The translations under genes and the position numbers were made by a program. Shown piece after piece: positions 5,063-15,300 of a stretch of DNA of 21,156 nucleotides. The notes under the pieces were generated by a model that was not told where the DNA came from, made no database searches, and was given only the letters and a program-made list of their open reading frames with translations. Numbering within the stretch: position 1 is the stretch's first letter; the number at the start of each line of letters is the position of its first letter. Source of the stretch: a virus; the IMG/VR virus record IMGVR_UViG_3300010412_000151, positions 1-21,156 of that record; one strand, given 5' to 3'.

Positions 5063-6559
5063 ATGCTTACTACAATCAATTTACATGACCGCTTGGGTCG
5101 CATGGTCGGCAGAGAAACTTGGAAGCTTTCAGTCAAGTCAGTAGCAGAAGCTATTCAGGCCATCGAAATTCAGTCCGAGAGATTCTTTGATGTTATACAG
5201 CGTTTGCAGGACGGGGGAGTAGCCTTTCACGTGTTAGTCAATGGAGAAGATACCCCCGACGATGATTATTTTATAATGCAAAGTCCTGACATTAGGACAA
5301 TTGACATTATTCCAGTTATAGAAGGCTCAAGCAGAAATGCCCGAATAATCGTAGGAATTATATTGATTATAGTAGCTTCATACTTTACTGGAGGTTTAGC
5401 CGCTTACGGAACATCAGGCTATACAGGGGGAGGTATTATAGGTACAAGTATGGGGACTTTTGGAACTTCCATGATGACAGGTGTTGCAATGATGGGTGCG
5501 TCACTCGTTGCAGGAGGCATTGCTGAAATGTTTGCCCCAACTGTAGAGAACAAATCAGAAAGCGGAGACAAGAAAGAATCCTACCTGTACTCGGGTGCGT
5601 TCAATAGAGTAGGGGCAGGTGGCCCGATTCCTGTATTGTATGGGTGCATGTACATAGGCTCAACAGTGATCAACGGTAAGGTAAATGTATCTCAGGGAAC
5701 AGTGCCTTACATGATTGCCGCTCAAATGAGGGGAGTTGAGTTTGTGCCGCATGATTCAAGTGCTATTGCCACTTTTGAAAAAGCCAGAGATGATTTGCTG
5801 GCTGAAATGTATGATTACGACATAGACGATTTTCCAGAAGGTTCCGCGATTCCAGGACACGTTTATCAGCCCAGTGTAGAGATCAAACGAATTACTTCAA
5901 ATGGTCTCTCTTGGGAGATTACCGTCACGTCCGAAACAGCAGACAGTACATGGAGTTACTGGTTGAAGCCGTATGATGAATCGGTAGAGAATGAAAATGT
6001 GTTGTACACGTTAGGCACAGTTGAACGTCCAACAGACAATGGTGAAGCCAGTGATGATTTGCCGAACGGGTATACTGCGAGCATAACCCTGCCGCAGAAG
6101 GATTCCACAGGACTAGCCCAACCGCATCAGATACGAATTGTTTCAAGTCATGAAACTTTGGAGTCATCTTTTCCAAAAGATTCAGCACTGTCTGCCGAAG
6201 TAGGATTAACTATTCAAGGCAAGGATGGCAAGAATTGGTGGGACGGCAGTGTTCTAACTAAAACTGAATATCCTACTTTTGGATATACTATTACGAATGT
6301 AGTAGCAGGCAGTATTGACATTACTGTTACATATCATGACGCTGTTATTACAGGAGACCTTGTAGCTGAGTCCAGACAAAGGCGGGGAGTAACATTGGAT
6401 ATTAATCAAACTACTGTAGTTGTTCCTGAAGACAATATGGCGTTTGGATATGCGTCAATGATTCCTAGCAAGGTCACAGTTAAAATATCCAGCCCCGAGG
6501 GATTCTTTGAGCCTGTTACAGTCTTCAGGGATTACGAAATGCAAAACTACTACGGATAA
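5063..6559 (+). CDS. Tail assembly protein I-like, with long C-terminal extension
   Basis: The first 210 residues resemble the lambda gpI family of tail-tip assembly proteins: a small alpha/beta N-terminal domain (VKSVAEAIQAIE), a hydrophobic Gly/Ala/Met-rich segment (about 94-157, including IIVGIILIIVASYF), and the conserved element GAFNRVGAGGPIPVLYGCMY followed by IGS. Lambda gpI is about 223 residues. This protein continues to 498 with beta-rich sequence of no family I recognise, rich in Thr, Ser and acidic residues. The gene is preceded by a palindrome rather than a clear Shine-Dalgarno site. Its stop overlaps the start of the J-like gene (TAATG at 6557-6561), consistent with I-J coupling. 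The I assignment rests on order, the membrane-like segment and the VPVxYG-type motif. Confidence 0.78.
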   Translation: MLTTINLHDRLGRMVGRETWKLSVKSVAEAIQAIEIQSERFFDVIQRLQDGGVAFHVLVNGEDTPDDDYFIMQSPDIRTIDIIPVIEGSSRNARIIVGIILIIVASYFTGGLAAYGTSGYTGGGIIGTSMGTFGTSMMTGVAMMGASLVAGGIAEMFAPTVENKSESGDKKESYLYSGAFNRVGAGGPIPVLYGCMYIGSTVINGKVNVSQGTVPYMIAAQMRGVEFVPHDSSAIATFEKARDDLLAEMYDYDIDDFPEGSAIPGHVYQPSVEIKRITSNGLSWEITVTSETADSTWSYWLKPYDESVENENVLYTLGTVERPTDNGEASDDLPNGYTASITLPQKDSTGLAQPHQIRIVSSHETLESSFPKDSALSAEVGLTIQGKDGKNWWDGSVLTKTEYPTFGYTITNVVAGSIDITVTYHDAVITGDLVAESRQRRGVTLDINQTTVVVPEDNMAFGYASMIPSKVTVKISSPEGFFEPVTVFRDYEMQNYYG

Positions 6560-9500
6560 TGAAGCATATTATTTCAAATATAGATAACATACTTGAAGGC
6601 TCTGGATGTTTCAGGGCGGGAACCCTTGTGCTTACTCCCAAAGGTGAGCGTTCTATTGAGAAATTCCGCAAAGGGCAGAAAGTAATATGTTTCAACAAAT
6701 TAGTGATTTGTTTAGCCGATGGCACTCAATTAAAAGTTACAGCAAACCACTGGCTGCTTACTCCTGACGACGAGTTTAAGGAAGCAAAGGATTTCAGGGT
6801 AGGTGAACATTTGTTCACTAAGGACTACAAGCCTGTCAAGATTGATGCCATCATCATCGACCGTACAGTAGATGCGGTATACAATCTGAAAGTCGTGCCG
6901 TATCCGACATTCATTGTGAACGGTATCATGGCGCACAATGGCGGTGGGGGCAAGGGTGGAGCGTCATATACTGCAACCGAGGAACCTGACACGCTGTTCT
7001 CCATTGCAACCGCACGTGTACTTGATCTGCTGTCAGAGGGTGAATGTGCGGGATTCGTAGACAAGTACGAGAACATTGTAGGGGATGACGAGATAGGTAA
7101 AGCCATTTTCCTGAACAAGACCCCGATTCAATCCGATGTAAAATCCAACTACGTGCAGAGATTTGATAGGGTTGAAACAAATGTGTACCATAACTACTTT
7201 TTCGGCAACAACAACCAGTTATTCCTATATGGCGATCCTGTGCGCGACTGGAAAGGGGATAATGAAGACCCTCTTGCCGACCCGCCAGTTGGTGACGATG
7301 TGTACATGTATGTAGAAGACTATGGATCAACAGGATTATATGACTGGCCTGTAGATACGGTAAATGCCCTTGTCACTACAGACAAGATGGATGATGAGAT
7401 TTTTCCAGCCGACTTCAGCATACGCCCACAGTCAGGGTATACTTCGTTCCAGCTTCCAGTGCATATCGCTTATGCGGCTCCTGCGTACTTGACCAAAGAC
7501 CCGAGCAGGTATCAGTACAAGTTTGAAATCATTTCCAACAGCACCACGTTTTATCCCGGCTCAGGATGGACGATGCGAGTTTATGGAAATAGGACTACCG
7601 ATCCAATTCTTGATTTGCCTGATATTATAGCCAAGGAGGGAACAGGTTCTCCTTTACATCGTAGAATAGGCGTGAGCCTGTTAGACGACCCTTTTGATAA
7701 AGCAGATGAATATGATGACAGAGGGGCGATTATAAGCGGATTATTCATGGCTCCTGTTACAGGGAACATCACGTTTACGCTGGCGGCAAAAACACAAGCT
7801 AGATGCGTAATTCATGCTTACAACGATCCCGGCATAGGTAGCAAGCTCGCAGAACTTGAAACAACTTATCACCATAATTGGTTTGAGTGGACTGAAAAGC
7901 TCTGGTTTAACCCAGTGTCTACGAGTGTTTCGATGACCGCAGGCACATTCTATCATATCCGAATCTATTACGTGCATAGGTGGAATGATAATTACGTGGG
8001 GCTGAAAATTAAGTATAATCAGGGTGAAAAAACATACGATCATCCTTCCATACCTTTGCCTTTAATGTCGGCCGACCCCGAAGTGGAAAATTCAGATTAT
8101 TTGAAGTACATTCCTTCGGACATATATGCAAAGAGGGGATCAGTGCGCCTGAATACCCTGCATGAGAATTTCAGGGGAGTAAAGCTGATGTACCAGTTGG
8201 GCACTGATGTTACCCAACAGCAGGCGATTATAGGGTTTGCAGAGCCGTCACAGACAGTTCAAGTAGGTATCCAAGTCAAACAGAAGATACCGTGGACAGT
8301 CAACATATACGATGGGAATGCCGAGAGTGTCGATGTAGCATTGCGCTTTAATGGGTTGAGCAAATCCACAGCAGAAGGGGATGTTGTAAAAACCAGAGTA
8401 GACTTTAAGGTGTACAAAAATAACGTGTACACAGAAAGTTTTTACGTATATGGTAAAGCATCTTCCGCTTATCAGGTTTCCCGAACATTTTTCCCGCCTG
8501 ACAACAATGATGGGCAGCCGTGGACGTTGACTATCGAGCGAACAACCGAGGATTCAATCAAGAATAATTCAGAAGACGAAGATGAAGCGGGCATGAATGT
8601 GAATGACGACAGCTTCATTGAGTTTTATTCGGTCAATAACACTGAAACGTATAATTACCCGAATTGTGCGCTGATTGGAATCGAGACTAGGGCAGACCAG
8701 TTCTCAAGCATCCCGACACGCACTTACCATTTCAAGGGAGTTAAGGTAAAGCTGCCCAACGGGTATAACCCGAGTACCAGAGCGTATCCCGCCTACTGGG
8801 ACGGAACTTTTGCCTCTAATAAAGAATGGACCGATAATCCTGTTTGGCAGTTGTACGATATGTCCACCAACAAGCGTTACGGCTTGGGAGCGTACATCGA
8901 AGATGACATGATCAACAAATGGGAGTTCTATCGGTGCAGCAAGTATTGTGATGAAATGGTATATACTGGTGCGATCAAAGCCGTAGGTGTATATGCATTT
9001 GAAAATACAGATAATACCCTGTTCTTCAAGACTCCCCTGACTCAGGGAATCAAGGCGGGAGACAAGATTTATTTTGAGGGGCAAAGTCAGTCCACGTTTT
9101 ATCTGGTGGCAAATGCAAATGCGTATAAATCGGCTACGTCGATTGCCATAACAAATCCTGAAGTCATTTCATCGACTGATGGCGATCTCATGATAAACTA
9201 CAAGGGGGCTGAACCACGCTTCCAGTGCAGTTTCTACTACCAGACCTTTGCAGAGGCTTGGAAAGCCTTCAGAGACCTCACTACAGCATTCAGGGCGGCA
9301 GTGTTCTGGATGAACGGGGGAGTAAGTTTGTCTCAGGATAGGCCGATAACCACCGAACACCAGCTTTTCACCAATTCAAACGTCAAGGACGGACTGTTCA
9401 GCTATACAGGCGGTGATGTGAATGACCGCTATACCGTGTGCAGAGTGCAATGGAATGATCCGAGCCAGTTTGACGAGCCTGTAGTAGAGACGGTGGAGAA

Positions 9501-11652
9501 TATCGGGGGACTGATGCGCTATGGACAACGCATCAAGAGCATGACAGCTTTCGGAGCCCGATCCAGAACGCAAGCCATACGCCTAGCCAGATGGTATCTT
9601 TATACTTCGCTGTATGAAGCAGAGATTGTGTCGTTTACAGCAGGCCAGGAGGGGTTGTATACCGCTCCCGGCAGAGTTATTTACATACATGACAAGGATC
9701 GTGATTCGATTGTGCTGGGAGGCCGAGTAAAGCGTGTAGAGAATGACGGGTCAACTGACACCATTGTAGTTGACAACTACGTGGATTTCGAAGCGGGGTA
9801 CGAGTACACGCTGGTAATGATCATACCAACTGATTACCGTACCATTGAAGAGATTGACGATTTGGCTGAAGCTAATCGTGAGGCTGAATCCGAAAATATT
9901 TATGCCCCCCAAGTAGTGCGTTACCGTTTGGAAGAAGCTTTGGCAGGCCGACATGAAAAGATTCCATTGCCCACCGGATCAACTTTGTCATTACCGACAG
10001 GGGTAGACGGATCGCAGTTGATTTGGGCAGTTGAACGATCAAAATTGTCTTCAGGGCCGCTTGTAGCGGGAACATTGATAAAGTACAGGCAGTATAAGAT
10101 TGCCGATTATGTGTCAGATGACGACTTTACGAATGTCGGCGCATTGAGCAATGCCACCGGAGAGTATTTTATCGCTACAGGAACAATACCTACTACATGG
10201 ACTAACGGCTCAACGTTGTACGAAATTTCTGCCGATGCAGCGCAGTGGAAAGTCATTACTGTAGAAGACAAGAAGGATGGGGAAGTAGAAATTTCCGCAA
10301 AGCGATATTTTCCGCAGAAATTTGAGGAGTCTGACAGGGGGCCATTCCTGTACAGCACCACTTCACCCGATCCGATAACGGCTGATCCGAAAAAGCCGTA
10401 TGACTTCAGGGTTACACGCAGGAAGAAATATGACCCGACAGCAACCAACGCATATTACCAGTTAACTTGGGGGGCTCCTGTAGGAGTGGGAATTGTAGGC
10501 TATCAGCTTAAGTATGAAACCTCTGTGAATCCCGGCAACCTTGAGACCATCAGCGAAGCATACTACGGTACAACGTATGATGCCGAGATGAATTTGGATA
10601 TTTCCCGATTTTATGTCAGATCAATAACTATTGCGGGCAAGTATTCAGACTGGGTTACTTCTGCAATAGATCAGGAGTTTACTGCCAAGCTGTCAGACTA
10701 TGCCCCGATAATCGGGCTTGAATTGCAAAACCGTAACAGCAACGGAGAGTATAATGACAAGTTCGCTACACTTAGCTGGCGGTTGAGCAATACTGTGGCT
10801 CCTGAAATGACTGATGATGTCACCGCTGATTCAGGGTCGGACGAAGCGTGGTTCAAGCAGTACAGGGTGAAGCTTGAATCAATAGATGGAATGTTCCTGA
10901 ACGAATATACCACCAAGGAGCGTAGATTCACCTATACCTATGACATGATGGTGGATGACTTCAGTAATGCAGGTGAAACGTTAAATGGGGACTTCAAGTG
11001 TTGGGTAGCCGTAGAAGACAGGCTTGGGGACATATCACGCTATAGCATGACTGAAGTGTACAATGCGTCTCCCGGCAACATTCAGAACCTTGCTGTCACC
11101 AGAGACCAGCTAGGAGTCAAAATAGACTGGGATGCACCAGCAGGGGAGAACGATATTGTCAAGTACTACATTTACCGCACCCTAGATACGACACCGCCAA
11201 CACCCGGCACAGATGACCCGTTTGCAATAGTGGCAGCAGATTCGTATACTTATAAAGAAGACATTGAAGAATTGGGCTATGAGCCTTGGGTGCAGAAGTA
11301 TTACTGGGTAGCCGCTTATGATATTTTTGATCAGTTAGGCACAGTATCTTCAACAGGCTATGCAACTGTTTCCCCCTTGGATACTTTAGATGATTTTGAA
11401 GCAGTACCGATAACACCTGCCAATGGAGGCAGGGGATTTAATGTTACGTGGGATGTTACAGTACCAAGTGCTACAGTCATGAGTGCGTATACCGGAAGTA
11501 TTTCTAATGGTACTGCTACTTTTTCAAGTCATTCATTCAGTGAAGGAGACCATGTTATTATAATAGATACTGCGGGCAGAGAGTGGACAGCAAAAGTAAC
11601 TGAAGTAGATGGAAACGATGTTACATGGGCAGTATATTATCAGTTATTATAA
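6559..11652 (+). CDS. Central tail-tip/host-specificity protein, lambda gpJ-like, with N-terminal Hint domain
   Basis: Tail hub and central tip protein that contacts the receptor. Residues 17-127 are a Hint domain (separate entry). Residue 128 onward (GGGGKGGASY, later VLDLLSEGECAGFVD) parallels the lambda J start. Strong J landmarks are CALIGIETRADQFSS (about 703), GYNPSTRAYPAYWDGTF, YDMSTNKRYGLGAYIEDD, SQDRPITTEHQLF, RYGQRIKSMTAFGARSR-QA and FTAGQEGLYTAPG. Loop insertions not in lambda J are a PA14-like module (about 360-494), a cassette at about 804-879 (GIKAGDKIYFEG) and a DDFTNVGA cassette (about 1171-1224). From about 1277 there are three FN3-like domains and the start of a fourth, which is interrupted. 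The TAATG overlap with the I-like gene sets the start; an ATG at 6928 would bypass the Hint domain but has no good ribosome-binding site. Confidence 0.92.
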   Translation: MKHIISNIDNILEGSGCFRAGTLVLTPKGERSIEKFRKGQKVICFNKLVICLADGTQLKVTANHWLLTPDDEFKEAKDFRVGEHLFTKDYKPVKIDAIIIDRTVDAVYNLKVVPYPTFIVNGIMAHNGGGGKGGASYTATEEPDTLFSIATARVLDLLSEGECAGFVDKYENIVGDDEIGKAIFLNKTPIQSDVKSNYVQRFDRVETNVYHNYFFGNNNQLFLYGDPVRDWKGDNEDPLADPPVGDDVYMYVEDYGSTGLYDWPVDTVNALVTTDKMDDEIFPADFSIRPQSGYTSFQLPVHIAYAAPAYLTKDPSRYQYKFEIISNSTTFYPGSGWTMRVYGNRTTDPILDLPDIIAKEGTGSPLHRRIGVSLLDDPFDKADEYDDRGAIISGLFMAPVTGNITFTLAAKTQARCVIHAYNDPGIGSKLAELETTYHHNWFEWTEKLWFNPVSTSVSMTAGTFYHIRIYYVHRWNDNYVGLKIKYNQGEKTYDHPSIPLPLMSADPEVENSDYLKYIPSDIYAKRGSVRLNTLHENFRGVKLMYQLGTDVTQQQAIIGFAEPSQTVQVGIQVKQKIPWTVNIYDGNAESVDVALRFNGLSKSTAEGDVVKTRVDFKVYKNNVYTESFYVYGKASSAYQVSRTFFPPDNNDGQPWTLTIERTTEDSIKNNSEDEDEAGMNVNDDSFIEFYSVNNTETYNYPNCALIGIETRADQFSSIPTRTYHFKGVKVKLPNGYNPSTRAYPAYWDGTFASNKEWTDNPVWQLYDMSTNKRYGLGAYIEDDMINKWEFYRCSKYCDEMVYTGAIKAVGVYAFENTDNTLFFKTPLTQGIKAGDKIYFEGQSQSTFYLVANANAYKSATSIAITNPEVISSTDGDLMINYKGAEPRFQCSFYYQTFAEAWKAFRDLTTAFRAAVFWMNGGVSLSQDRPITTEHQLFTNSNVKDGLFSYTGGDVNDRYTVCRVQWNDPSQFDEPVVETVENIGGLMRYGQRIKSMTAFGARSRTQAIRLARWYLYTSLYEAEIVSFTAGQEGLYTAPGRVIYIHDKDRDSIVLGGRVKRVENDGSTDTIVVDNYVDFEAGYEYTLVMIIPTDYRTIEEIDDLAEANREAESENIYAPQVVRYRLEEALAGRHEKIPLPTGSTLSLPTGVDGSQLIWAVERSKLSSGPLVAGTLIKYRQYKIADYVSDDDFTNVGALSNATGEYFIATGTIPTTWTNGSTLYEISADAAQWKVITVEDKKDGEVEISAKRYFPQKFEESDRGPFLYSTTSPDPITADPKKPYDFRVTRRKKYDPTATNAYYQLTWGAPVGVGIVGYQLKYETSVNPGNLETISEAYYGTTYDAEMNLDISRFYVRSITIAGKYSDWVTSAIDQEFTAKLSDYAPIIGLELQNRNSNGEYNDKFATLSWRLSNTVAPEMTDDVTADSGSDEAWFKQYRVKLESIDGMFLNEYTTKERRFTYTYDMMVDDFSNAGETLNGDFKCWVAVEDRLGDISRYSMTEVYNASPGNIQNLAVTRDQLGVKIDWDAPAGENDIVKYYIYRTLDTTPPTPGTDDPFAIVAADSYTYKEDIEELGYEPWVQKYYWVAAYDIFDQLGTVSSTGYATVSPLDTLDDFEAVPITPANGGRGFNVTWDVTVPSATVMSAYTGSISNGTATFSSHSFSEGDHVIIIDTAGREWTAKVTEVDGNDVTWAVYYQLL
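6607..6939 (+). other. Hint (intein-like/BIL-type) autoprocessing domain within J
   Basis: Residues 17-127 of the J-like protein, 111 residues. Block A is CFRAGTLVLTPKGERSIEKF, with Cys17 as N-terminal nucleophile. Block B is LKVTANHWLLT, with the T61-x-x-H64 motif. The C-terminal blocks are VYNLKVVPYPTFIVNG, then IMAHN with His126-Asn127. The +1 residue is Gly128, not Cys/Ser/Thr, so complete splicing is unlikely; Asn cyclisation would cut before GGGGKGG and give a canonical J N-terminus. No homing endonuclease is present. The span between blocks A and B is shorter than in typical Hint folds, so the domain is minimal or partly degenerate. Only 16 residues precede it, ending in EGSG. Confidence 0.85.
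7640..8040 (+). other. PA14-like module inserted in J (boundaries approximate)
   Basis: Within the N-terminal part of the J-like protein, residues about 360-494 contain ISGLFMAPVTGNITFTLAAK, then a strand ending VSMTAGTFYHIRIYYV and VGLKIKYN. This follows the PA14 pattern of a G-x-(I/L)-x-A-P-x-x-G-x-(Y/I)-T-F strand, and L-x-A-G-x-x-Y-x-I near the end. PA14 domains often bind carbohydrate. Lambda J has no comparable segment here. Assignment is by eye only. Confidence 0.5.
10069..10233 (+). repeat. DDFTNVGA cassette, copy in J
   Basis: Roughly 50-residue cassette: YKIADYVSDDDFTNVGA, then NATGEYFIATGTIPTTWTNG and STLYE. It sits in a loop of the last J hub domain, between ERSKLSSGP and AAQWKVITVEDKKDG, where lambda J has no insert. 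From memory, the same kind of motif recurs in many phage structural proteins; its role is unknown to me. A diverged copy is in the next gene at about 11939-12097. Confidence 0.8.
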
Positions 11653-11656
11653 GGAG
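11651..11656 (+). promoter_or_regulatory. Strong Shine-Dalgarno for the FN3 tail protein
   Basis: AAGGAG, beginning inside the stop codon of the J-like gene and nine bases before ATG 11666. It is the best ribosome-binding site in the window. It shows that the downstream protein is translated on its own and not as part of J. Confidence 0.8.
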
Positions 11657-11665
11657 AATTAAATA

Positions 11666-13360
11666 ATGGCAGGCGGTGTTTCAGTACCTTATAGCATGAG
11701 ACCAAATCCTTATCGAAGCGATAAGGTAGTTATTCGTACATGGGAAGATGGCGATTCAACGTCATCCGTCCGTGAATTACCCTATACGAGTGGTTCAGGA
11801 ACAGTATATGTTCCAATTACAGAAGCGGGAAGTTATTTGTGGCTTGAAGCCACTCGAAAACATACTTTTGGAAGTACGCAACTTAATAGTAATTTAGTAT
11901 TGAGTGGACAGACTACGGGGAACGCAATAACCAGTGGAACACTTGAAATAGGTAAACGCTATAAAATTACAAACTATGTTTCCAGTGATGATTTTACCAA
12001 TGTAGGGGCAAATGAAAATGAAACCGGAGAAATTTTCACAGCTATAGGCACTACTCCTACGGTATGGACTAATTCATCGACATTATATGAGTTTACTACA
12101 GAATCATTGCTTGTTGCGCCTAGTTGGGATTTAGCACAACCTAGTAGTTTAACTCCTGTTGCTACTGAAGGGGGAGTTGAGCTTTCATGGACAGATGCTA
12201 CAAATCCTGCCATATTTAAAGGGTACTCAATTACAGGAGTTGATGCCTATGACCCCCCACTTAAGTACCAAGGAAGCCCACAGTATAACCCCACATTTCC
12301 AGAGGTTGATTCATCCCAAAGAAAAGCCCATTTGAACTTTACAACAAGTGATGAAGTAGGAGATCAGGTAAGATACCATATCACAGTGACTCCGCTTGAT
12401 ATTTTGGGGAACCCGATGGACGGAGTTACAAGTACCGATTGGGGAACTCCAAATAGTAAAAAAGCTGTAACGTCTACTGGATTAGGATTAGGCCCCCTGT
12501 TGCCCGAGTATCCTAAATTGTCAAATGACTCCCCCACAAGCTACACCAATGTGGCGATCACAAACGTAAATACTGTTGATAATTTATTGTATAGTGCGTC
12601 GCATGGATTAGAGGCTGGATGGGCTTTGAAATTTACGGGAACCGATTTGCCTGATCCGTTAGCACAAGATACATGGTATTACGTAGTAGATATTGGGTAT
12701 ACCGATTGGTTTGCAGTAGCTACTTCAATTAACGACACCAACTTAGTTGTTATTAATGACGTAGGATCAGGGTCTATGACTTGGACAGCATATCCTCCCA
12801 TGCTGTACGTGTATTATGATACGGTTTCAAGCATAGACACTGATAATGATCTTATAAACTTTGGAGAGCCCCATGCCTTTGCAACTGGGGACTGGGTGAA
12901 ATGTTATGCGTGTAATGGAGGTACAGAAGGGGGATATCCCGGCATAAGCGGAGATACTGCTTATTACGTAGTCAAAGTGTCTACAAATCACATTGCGTTG
13001 AAAACATCTGCCACGTCATCGAGTTATGTTAATCTGACTTCGGGGTTAACGGGTACGCTTGAAGTAGTGAGATGCAGGTGTCCGTTGATATTTGATCCAT
13101 CATTAAACAATGAATACTTAGGCGGGTATCAGTTCAAGTATAATAACTCTGCGGCAATAGACCTCGTGGATGATCCTCTGTACTACAAAACTGCAAGCAA
13201 TTTGAACTTTACATGCACATATAACAGTGGGGGAAACTATACGCTTCAAACCATGTATTTAGAAATAGTGAGTAAAAAGGGGATTAGTTTTCCAATGAAT
13301 ATTTATGCAGAGATTGATTCCCTTATTACGGGAGGCTGGGGAGGCGGTGCGCCCTATTAA
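11666..13360 (+). CDS. FN3/cassette tail protein, possible detached distal part of J
   Basis: 564 residues with no single family match that I recognise. Residues 18-68 (SDKVVIRTWEDG, later TVYVPITEAGSYLWLEATRK) look like strands C to F of a FN3 domain lacking its first strands, which the end of J seems to supply. Residues 92-145 are a DDFTNVGA cassette. About 155-262 form a FN3-like domain (GGVELSWTDA, KGYSITGVDAY, VRYHITVTPLDILG). About 296-375 and 386-470 are two diverged copies of a cassette with (S)HGL-x-x-G-(W/D), then Q-TWYYVVDI or TAYYVVKV, a type I know from many phage tail proteins. The last 95 residues are unassigned beta-rich sequence ending GGWGGGAPY. The sequence is visibly more AT-rich than most of J. 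Likely role: an extension of the central tip fibre. Confidence 0.7.
   Translation: MAGGVSVPYSMRPNPYRSDKVVIRTWEDGDSTSSVRELPYTSGSGTVYVPITEAGSYLWLEATRKHTFGSTQLNSNLVLSGQTTGNAITSGTLEIGKRYKITNYVSSDDFTNVGANENETGEIFTAIGTTPTVWTNSSTLYEFTTESLLVAPSWDLAQPSSLTPVATEGGVELSWTDATNPAIFKGYSITGVDAYDPPLKYQGSPQYNPTFPEVDSSQRKAHLNFTTSDEVGDQVRYHITVTPLDILGNPMDGVTSTDWGTPNSKKAVTSTGLGLGPLLPEYPKLSNDSPTSYTNVAITNVNTVDNLLYSASHGLEAGWALKFTGTDLPDPLAQDTWYYVVDIGYTDWFAVATSINDTNLVVINDVGSGSMTWTAYPPMLYVYYDTVSSIDTDNDLINFGEPHAFATGDWVKCYACNGGTEGGYPGISGDTAYYVVKVSTNHIALKTSATSSSYVNLTSGLTGTLEVVRCRCPLIFDPSLNNEYLGGYQFKYNNSAAIDLVDDPLYYKTASNLNFTCTYNSGGNYTLQTMYLEIVSKKGISFPMNIYAEIDSLITGGWGGGAPY
11939..12097 (+). repeat. DDFTNVGA cassette, copy in the FN3 tail protein
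   Basis: Protein pattern YKITNYVSSDDFTNVGA, then ETGEIFTAIGTTPTVWTNS and STLYEF. It aligns over about 48 residues with the J copy at 10069, but most shared residues use different codons. The two copies are therefore long diverged or separately acquired, not a recent duplication. Confidence 0.8.
12551..13075 (+). repeat. Two tandem HGL/YYV cassettes
   Basis: Within the 564-residue protein, residues about 296-375 and 386-470 repeat the order: start strand, (S)HGLEAGWALKF or HAFATGDWVKCY, a loop, TWYYVVDI or TAYYVVKV, a F/I-A-(V/L) strand, and a final Gly-Ser or Gly-Thr turn. Identity is low but the element order is the same. Confidence 0.6.
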
Positions 13361-14856: not shown

Positions 14857-15300
14857 GTGAATAAAGCATTAACCATATATCTCGGAAGCCGAGCGTACAT
14901 TGAGAACTGGGAAGAGAAGCTTCAGTTTCGTGCTACTTCTGTCGCAAGCTTGGCGGGGGTTAAACAGAAAACCCTGACTTTCCCCTTTCCTTCCCGAGAG
15001 TATATGATAGGGCTTAGTGGGAAAAATCCCAATGTCTATACAGTGGATACGACTAAAGTTGCGCCTGTGATTGATGTGTCCAGTTCCCCCGCAATATCAT
15101 GGGCAGCGTCACCGGACACTGAATTGTACTATGAAGTAGCCACCAGTGGCGCGTACAGCCATTTAGACAGGAAGAAATCGCTTACATGCACCGATTCACT
15201 GTCCTATACCGCCACGGAGACGGGGTATTATTTTGTGCGTTACCGATTCGCAAGTAACGTTGTTTCCAGATGGAGTCAGCCTGTGGAGATTAGTGTATGA
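14857..15300 (+). CDS. Small Ig/FN3-like tail protein of unknown function
   Basis: 147 residues starting with GTG (first residues MNKALTIYLGSRAYIENWEE). No ATG gives a comparable length; the first in-frame one is at residue 49. The C-terminal half (PAISWAASPDTELYYEV, later ETGYYFVRYRFASNVVSRWS) reads like a single Ig/FN3-type beta domain. I do not recognise the N-terminal half. It lies between the palindrome and the big fibre gene. Its stop TGA overlaps the next ATG (ATGA at 15297-15300), so the two proteins may be made in matched amounts. It may be a fibre connector or a chaperone; this is inference from position only. Confidence 0.6.
   Translation: MNKALTIYLGSRAYIENWEEKLQFRATSVASLAGVKQKTLTFPFPSREYMIGLSGKNPNVYTVDTTKVAPVIDVSSSPAISWAASPDTELYYEVATSGAYSHLDRKKSLTCTDSLSYTATETGYYFVRYRFASNVVSRWSQPVEISV

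Follow-up and report, generated by a model that had tools for sequence, protein, structure and literature searches.

A recurrent intein-like Hint domain in the N-terminal glycine tract of lambda-type phage tail tip proteins

Pretoxin-Hint domains (PT-HINT, PF07591) are described as releasing a C-terminal toxin. To our knowledge, no natural role has been clearly established for bacterial intein-like (BIL) domains, and we know of no place in nature where one could follow how they are gained and lost. BILs have been described in variable, non-conserved bacterial proteins (PMC7765530). In type A BILs, which lack a nucleophile at +1, splicing is possible and cleavage is predominant; the splicing route consists of thioester formation, Asn cyclisation and attack by the freed amine (PMC4031507). 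Here we describe a Hint domain inserted at the N-terminus of the J tail tip protein encoded by a 21,156-nucleotide viral contig (IMGVR_UViG_3300010412_000151, referred to as the window), together with its relatives. About a hundred further uncultured phages carry this insertion, likewise in the N-terminal Gly tract of J.

J occupies positions 6559..11652 of the window on the + strand, which also carries its parts and the gpI-like gene, and its reading frame of 1697 aa is open throughout. Profile searches matched PHROG 31 (5.8e-129), Phage-tail_3 (2e-14), FNIII-A_GpJ (7e-14) and lambda_TipJ. The J ATG overlaps by one base the stop codon of a gpI-like tail assembly gene (5063..6559; PHROG 32, 7.3e-40; Lambda_tail_I, 8.9e-4), and the genes leading up to and including J follow the order L-K-I-J, with K combining JAB and NlpC/P60 domains. 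Both its core domains and the gene order identify window J as a true tail tip protein of the lambda type. Lambda gpJ and its Hint-less relatives share the body domains, the L-K-I-J order and the N-terminal Gly leader motif, but have no Hint. No close relatives of window J were found in phage records or in IMG/VR.

Several other features of the region were recorded. The gpI-like protein is 498 aa long and continues for ~290 residues past the usual gpI end (GGPIPVLYG, 5618-5644). Relative to three Hint-less J proteins, window J has an insertion of ~370 residues after the EGECAGFV region (residues about 167-530, approximately 7057-8150), inside which residues 376-480 give a weak PA14 match; locus L010 seemingly also has an insertion after this region. 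A 44-residue segment is common to J and the next ORF (10093-10224 and 11960-12091; YKIADYVSDDDFTNVG... and YKITNYVSSDDFTNVG...). An ORF in the tape-measure region carries a duplicated 48-residue motif (928-1071 and 1636-1779; ISLRDQP.GGIL.GGS.YKDD.PI.AMG.EY), and a large tail fibre-like ORF (15297-18860) contains four copies of the repeat IKQ..DSH.GG.K.T.SAT..TWS between 16119 and 17900.

The Hint domain extends from Cys17 to Asn127 of J (6607..6939; 111 aa). It is preceded by a leader, or N-extein, MKHIISNIDNILEGSG (6559..6606), which ends in the canonical J motif I-L-E-G-S-G, and followed by the C-extein start GGGGKGGAS (6940..6966). An earlier note on this DNA had identified Cys17, T61-x-x-H64, His126-Asn127 and a Gly at +1, and all were found where it had placed them. 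Cys17 (6607..6609), Cys1 of the Hint, is the predicted nucleophile for an N-S acyl shift and is invariant in relatives with a complete 5′ end. Block B lies at 6739..6750 (T61 at 6739, H64 at 6748), the predicted Asn cyclisation site formed by His126 and Asn127 at 6934..6939, and Gly128 at 6940. The note's placement of the insertion within a Gly run, with no nucleophile at +1, is also supported; the same tract is present in Hint-less J proteins (e.g. IIGSGGGGGKGGGG). In the profile search that it had proposed, J residues 1-144 matched PT-HINT (3.8e-7) and Hint_2 (8.5e-7) above cut-off and Intein_splicing at 1.2e-7, below that profile's cut-off, while the TIGR profiles for intein N- and C-terminal regions were weak on window J. 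The closest PDB sequence was the Clostridium thermocellum BIL domain 2lwy (1.9e-5), and a structure model, far from losing the fold, matched intein and BIL structures (E about 1e-6; best, intein gp41-1). Chance resemblance to a Hint is ruled out by the profile E-values and by recurrence in the family. The Hint assignment of J residues 17-127 is confirmed, with Cys1, T-x-x-H and His-Asn in place and a Gly at +1.

Among described systems, A-type BILs such as 2lwy resemble the J Hint in fold, N-terminal Cys, T-x-x-H, C-terminal His-Asn and the absence of Cys, Ser or Thr at +1. They differ in residing in hypervariable bacterial proteins, whereas the J Hint always occupies the same position, flanked by Gly tracts, in a conserved structural protein of phages; one J-Hint subgroup ends in Ser-Asn, and the window copy is shortened. 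We file the domain as BIL-like, and not as a typical BIL, because its host protein is the conserved J; location is here a descriptive trait, and activity does not require it. Mini-inteins (gp41-1, Npu DnaE, Ssp DnaB) share with it the fold, the sequence blocks and presence/absence polymorphism at one site (here in the clade of J proteins recognised by DDSLQSVQ), and, as in canonical class 1 inteins, removal with ligation would restore the canonical host protein. Unlike them, the J Hint lacks a +1 nucleophile and the optional homing endonuclease, and its host is a tail tip protein and not a replication or packaging enzyme. A selfish homing endonuclease was rejected as an explanation, as there is no room for one in a domain of 111-135 aa. 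Window J matches the PT-HINT profile, but the part C-terminal to its Hint is a tail tip protein. Tetrahymena BUBL1 BIL2 (PDB 6y75) matched in fold (TM 0.69-0.76 to query) and belongs to a eukaryotic locus with unrelated flanks.

The extent of the family was delineated by several searches. The pattern NGx..HNGGG brought up numerous J proteins whose Gly tract likewise holds a Hint, and a profile-guided search yielded 183 relatives in IMG/VR, of which 80 were kept. A genome scan gave 16 matches, including one true J (L190, in a Betaproteobacteria MAG); L191-L194, L197 and L203 proved on inspection to be other Hint proteins. A J pattern derived from a single clade (NPNGP) and not from the Hint recovered 43 contigs, with an intact Hint in all 41 that have a complete 5′ end. 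In total 104 loci were aligned, comprising 79 distinct Hints (110 distinct Hint sequences once the last clade was added), and ten relatives out of ten checked by PHROG profile were lambda-type J.

Across the 79 distinct Hints, the +1 residue is Ala in 46, Gly in 18 and Lys in 15, and in none is it Cys, Ser or Thr; the -1 residue is Gly in 78. The block-B His is present in 79/79, the block-B Thr in 77/79 and the block-F His in 77/79, and the domain ends in His-Asn (70/79) or Ser-Asn (9/79), with the qualification that this set was partly selected and parsed by Cys1 and Asn, so that counts of those two residues are partly circular. Sets unselected for Hint residues, the NPNGP and DDSLQSVQ clades, agree with them; the latter has Cys1 in 44/44, TxNH in 45/45 and HN in 46/46. 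Two variants were seen: Ser-Asn in place of His-Asn is combined with Lys at +1 in L047, L049, L050, L056 and their relatives, and L034 and L042 have N-K-I-H at block B in place of T-x-N-H, losing the Thr and keeping the His.

No J with a Hint was found in open-access papers, to which the literature search was confined, or, at the sensitivity used, among 50,697 isolate phage records. A Hint-only search of isolate phages gave weak matches in helicases, terminases, a thymidylate synthase, a methyltransferase and hypothetical proteins, including two Ruminococcus phage loci that encode hypothetical proteins and carry no tail annotation. The J-borne Hint is a real and recurrent setting for intein-like domains, and apparently an undescribed one.

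The window copy is an atypical member of this family. As the earlier note had remarked, the domain is unusually short between blocks A and B: it measures 111 aa, as compared with 129-135 in the 78 other distinct relatives, with about 20-25 residues absent at an approximate junction after FNK (6697..6699), and a search of IMG/VR at its exact A-B spacing found no second example. It also lacks the block-F His, the position being taken by Pro116 (6904..6906) in an alignment in which the exact residue may shift by one or two positions. AlphaFold modelled the window Hint with pLDDT 74 and pTM 0.63 (confidence was low around the deletion junction, residues 38-43), and a full-length relative, L026, with pLDDT 86.5, pTM 0.81 and a long beta-strand where the window has its deletion; the two predictions were built on different alignments, and this comparison is indicative only. 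The best PDB match of the L026 model was BIL 2lwy (E 1.5e-10, TM 0.87 to target), so that a BIL is closest by sequence for the window and by fold for L026, and an intein is closest for the window model. The missing strand and His, the short length and the unique spacing would all be expected if this copy, as distinct from the family, were a decaying, inactive Hint kept on J as an N-terminal appendage. Against this, Cys1, T-x-x-H, His-Asn and the open frame are all retained and the fold model still resembles inteins; as a single private copy, it allows no selection test. We consider decay a serious possibility that falls somewhat short of probable. Activity of the window copy is doubtful, and because it is shortened, processing of J in the window phage may be slow, partial or lost.

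Comparison with Hint-less proteins shows what flanks the insertion. When three Hint-less J proteins of isolate phages are aligned with window J, their native start corresponds approximately to the window leader plus the post-Hint sequence, minus the Hint. A Hint was present in only 2 of 103 distinct J N-termini in a sample drawn with a J-body pattern. Among 73 distinct Hint-less N-termini with the Gly motif, in which the Gly positions were fixed by the motif search itself, Ala or Ser follows the first Gly in 61 and Ile or Leu stands two residues before it in 60, making [IL]-x-G-[AS]-[GK]-G nearly universal among them. Of 52 distinct leaders that precede a Hint, 51 contain the same motif, that of the window among them; there ILEGSG stands before the domain and GGGGKGG after it. 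Joining the two would give ILEGSGGGGGKGG, which resembles Hint-less forms such as KIIGSGGGGGKGG; a spliced-leader query against phage records returned remote J matches only. Since Hint-less J proteins share its motif, the leader is part of J and not merely a cap, and in the window architecture ligation, and not cutting alone, would restore the canonical start. The proposal in the earlier note that cleavage after Asn127 leaves a canonical J N-terminus is consequently not supported in that form, as cutting alone would lose the motif that precedes the Hint. Some Hint-less J proteins have no Gly leader at all (e.g. L099, L177 and L179), and the leader may therefore be dispensable.

Two architectures are found among 70 distinct junctions. 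In Type I (27 junctions, the window included), one leader is followed by the Hint and a Gly/Lys tract; in Type II (43 junctions), a second copy of the leader motif follows the Hint, as in MTKRIIGAGGGGGGG|Hint|AGLGSRIIGAGGGG. From their sequences, Type I would fit splicing, and Type II either splicing or cutting, as a cut by itself would already yield a complete J start, with no need for splicing. One locus (L246, J at 7953-12293) has two tandem Hints at the J N-terminus, each followed by a leader-like AGLG... segment.

These junctions bear on whether the Hint only cleaves, freeing itself from J by a cut at either end or at both, so that the leader is discarded and J begins at the Gly or Ala after Asn. 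The +1 residue is never a nucleophile in the 79 distinct Hints, and in the Type II junctions the cut product would be much like Hint-less alleles (L371 as compared with L387). The earlier note's statement that domains with a non-nucleophilic +1 mainly cleave agrees with the published view of BILs, with the amendment that according to the same review type A BILs can also splice (PMC4031507). In the window architecture, however, the cut product would lack the motif of most Hint-less J proteins. Estimates of dN/dS for the leader, several of them from very few substitutions, are mostly 0.06-0.17 and reach 0.27 where estimable, which suggests purifying selection, in most pairs tested, on a segment that cleavage would discard. 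Moreover, Cys1 and block B are invariant although C-terminal cleavage alone does not need them, which points to selection on the N-terminal step in Type I and Type II alike. Cleavage without ligation is a possible but rather unlikely account.

That the Hint region is not translated at all, J beginning at an in-frame internal ATG (6928; MAHNGGGGKGG), is very improbable. The codon is present in the window, but there and in most relatives the start of J is coupled to the stop of gpI, no other relative has an ATG near the Hint-body junction, and in relatives selection acts on the Hint at the protein level. An internal start, which the earlier note had weighed, does not hold as a general mechanism: 78 of the 79 Hints, the window being the exception, have no ATG in their last 8 codons, and 69 have no start codon of any kind there.

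The comparison of J homologues for residues 1-127 suggested in that note revealed Hint-less and Hint-bearing forms alike, with near-identical alleles in the DDSLQSVQ clade. About half of the 88 J proteins of this clade carry the Hint and about half do not, although three of the 44 scored as lacking it are cut off at a contig end, with remains of a Hint still visible. On a quick tree of 82 rows, the Hint state changes at least 14 times, 7 changes being forced by well supported branches. L371, with a Hint, is 96.4-96.6% identical in J body DNA to L387 or L318, which have none. L022 is a clean swap of the Hint cassette, with breakpoints near the flanking Gly tracts: its leader is 98.5% identical to that of L008 and its body 97%, while its Hint is 94% identical to that of L011 but 72% to that of L008. 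Gain, loss and exchange would be best explained by recombination between Gly-coding repeats, and the Hint behaves like an endonuclease-free mini-intein moved in this way.

The same data weigh on the suggestion that the Hint is a domesticated maturation switch, kept since its delayed removal stops premature tip assembly, or since a Gly-thioester links the leader to another tail protein. Its presence in 41 of 41 complete members of one deep J clade and its low dN/dS (0.01-0.20 in relative pairs where estimable) are in keeping with such a role. The Hint is, however, missing from about half of the near-identical J proteins of another clade and is thus dispensable there, and a plain intein would equally be expected to show purifying selection. 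We regard domestication as improbable.

On balance, the J Hint is most likely an autoprocessing element: an A-type BIL mini-domain in the J Gly tract, between a short native leader and the body, that would join the one to the other. The chemistry, products and role that we infer for it follow the type A route. Attack of Cys1 on the Gly before it would produce a thioester, cyclisation of Asn would release the Gly amine of the J body, and the freed amine would attack the thioester and join leader to body, with cleavage products arising as by-products. The product in the window would be MKHIISNIDNILEGSG-GGGGKGGAS..., resembling Hint-less J. The catalytic residues of the Hint would then be under selection because an essential part of the tail has to be freed of it.

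A more speculative extension, to which we give little credence, is that a phage lineage has made an intein-like domain a fixed step of tail tip maturation, in which the Gly-terminated leader thioester would either join the N-terminus of J, possibly to a partner protein of the tail, or release it, in time with assembly of the tip; the genes for JAB/NlpC and gpI, which adjoin J, also act at that site. Whatever the role, J-borne Hints form a numerous family in nature, and all of them sit at a single site in a phage protein that is well understood. The family includes near-identical alleles that differ in carrying the domain, a clean swap of the Hint, tandem copies, and leaders arranged in two architectures. 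It makes it possible to test directly whether natural BILs splice or cleave without splicing, how an endonuclease-free mini-intein spreads, and whether tail tip assembly tolerates or uses a Hint.
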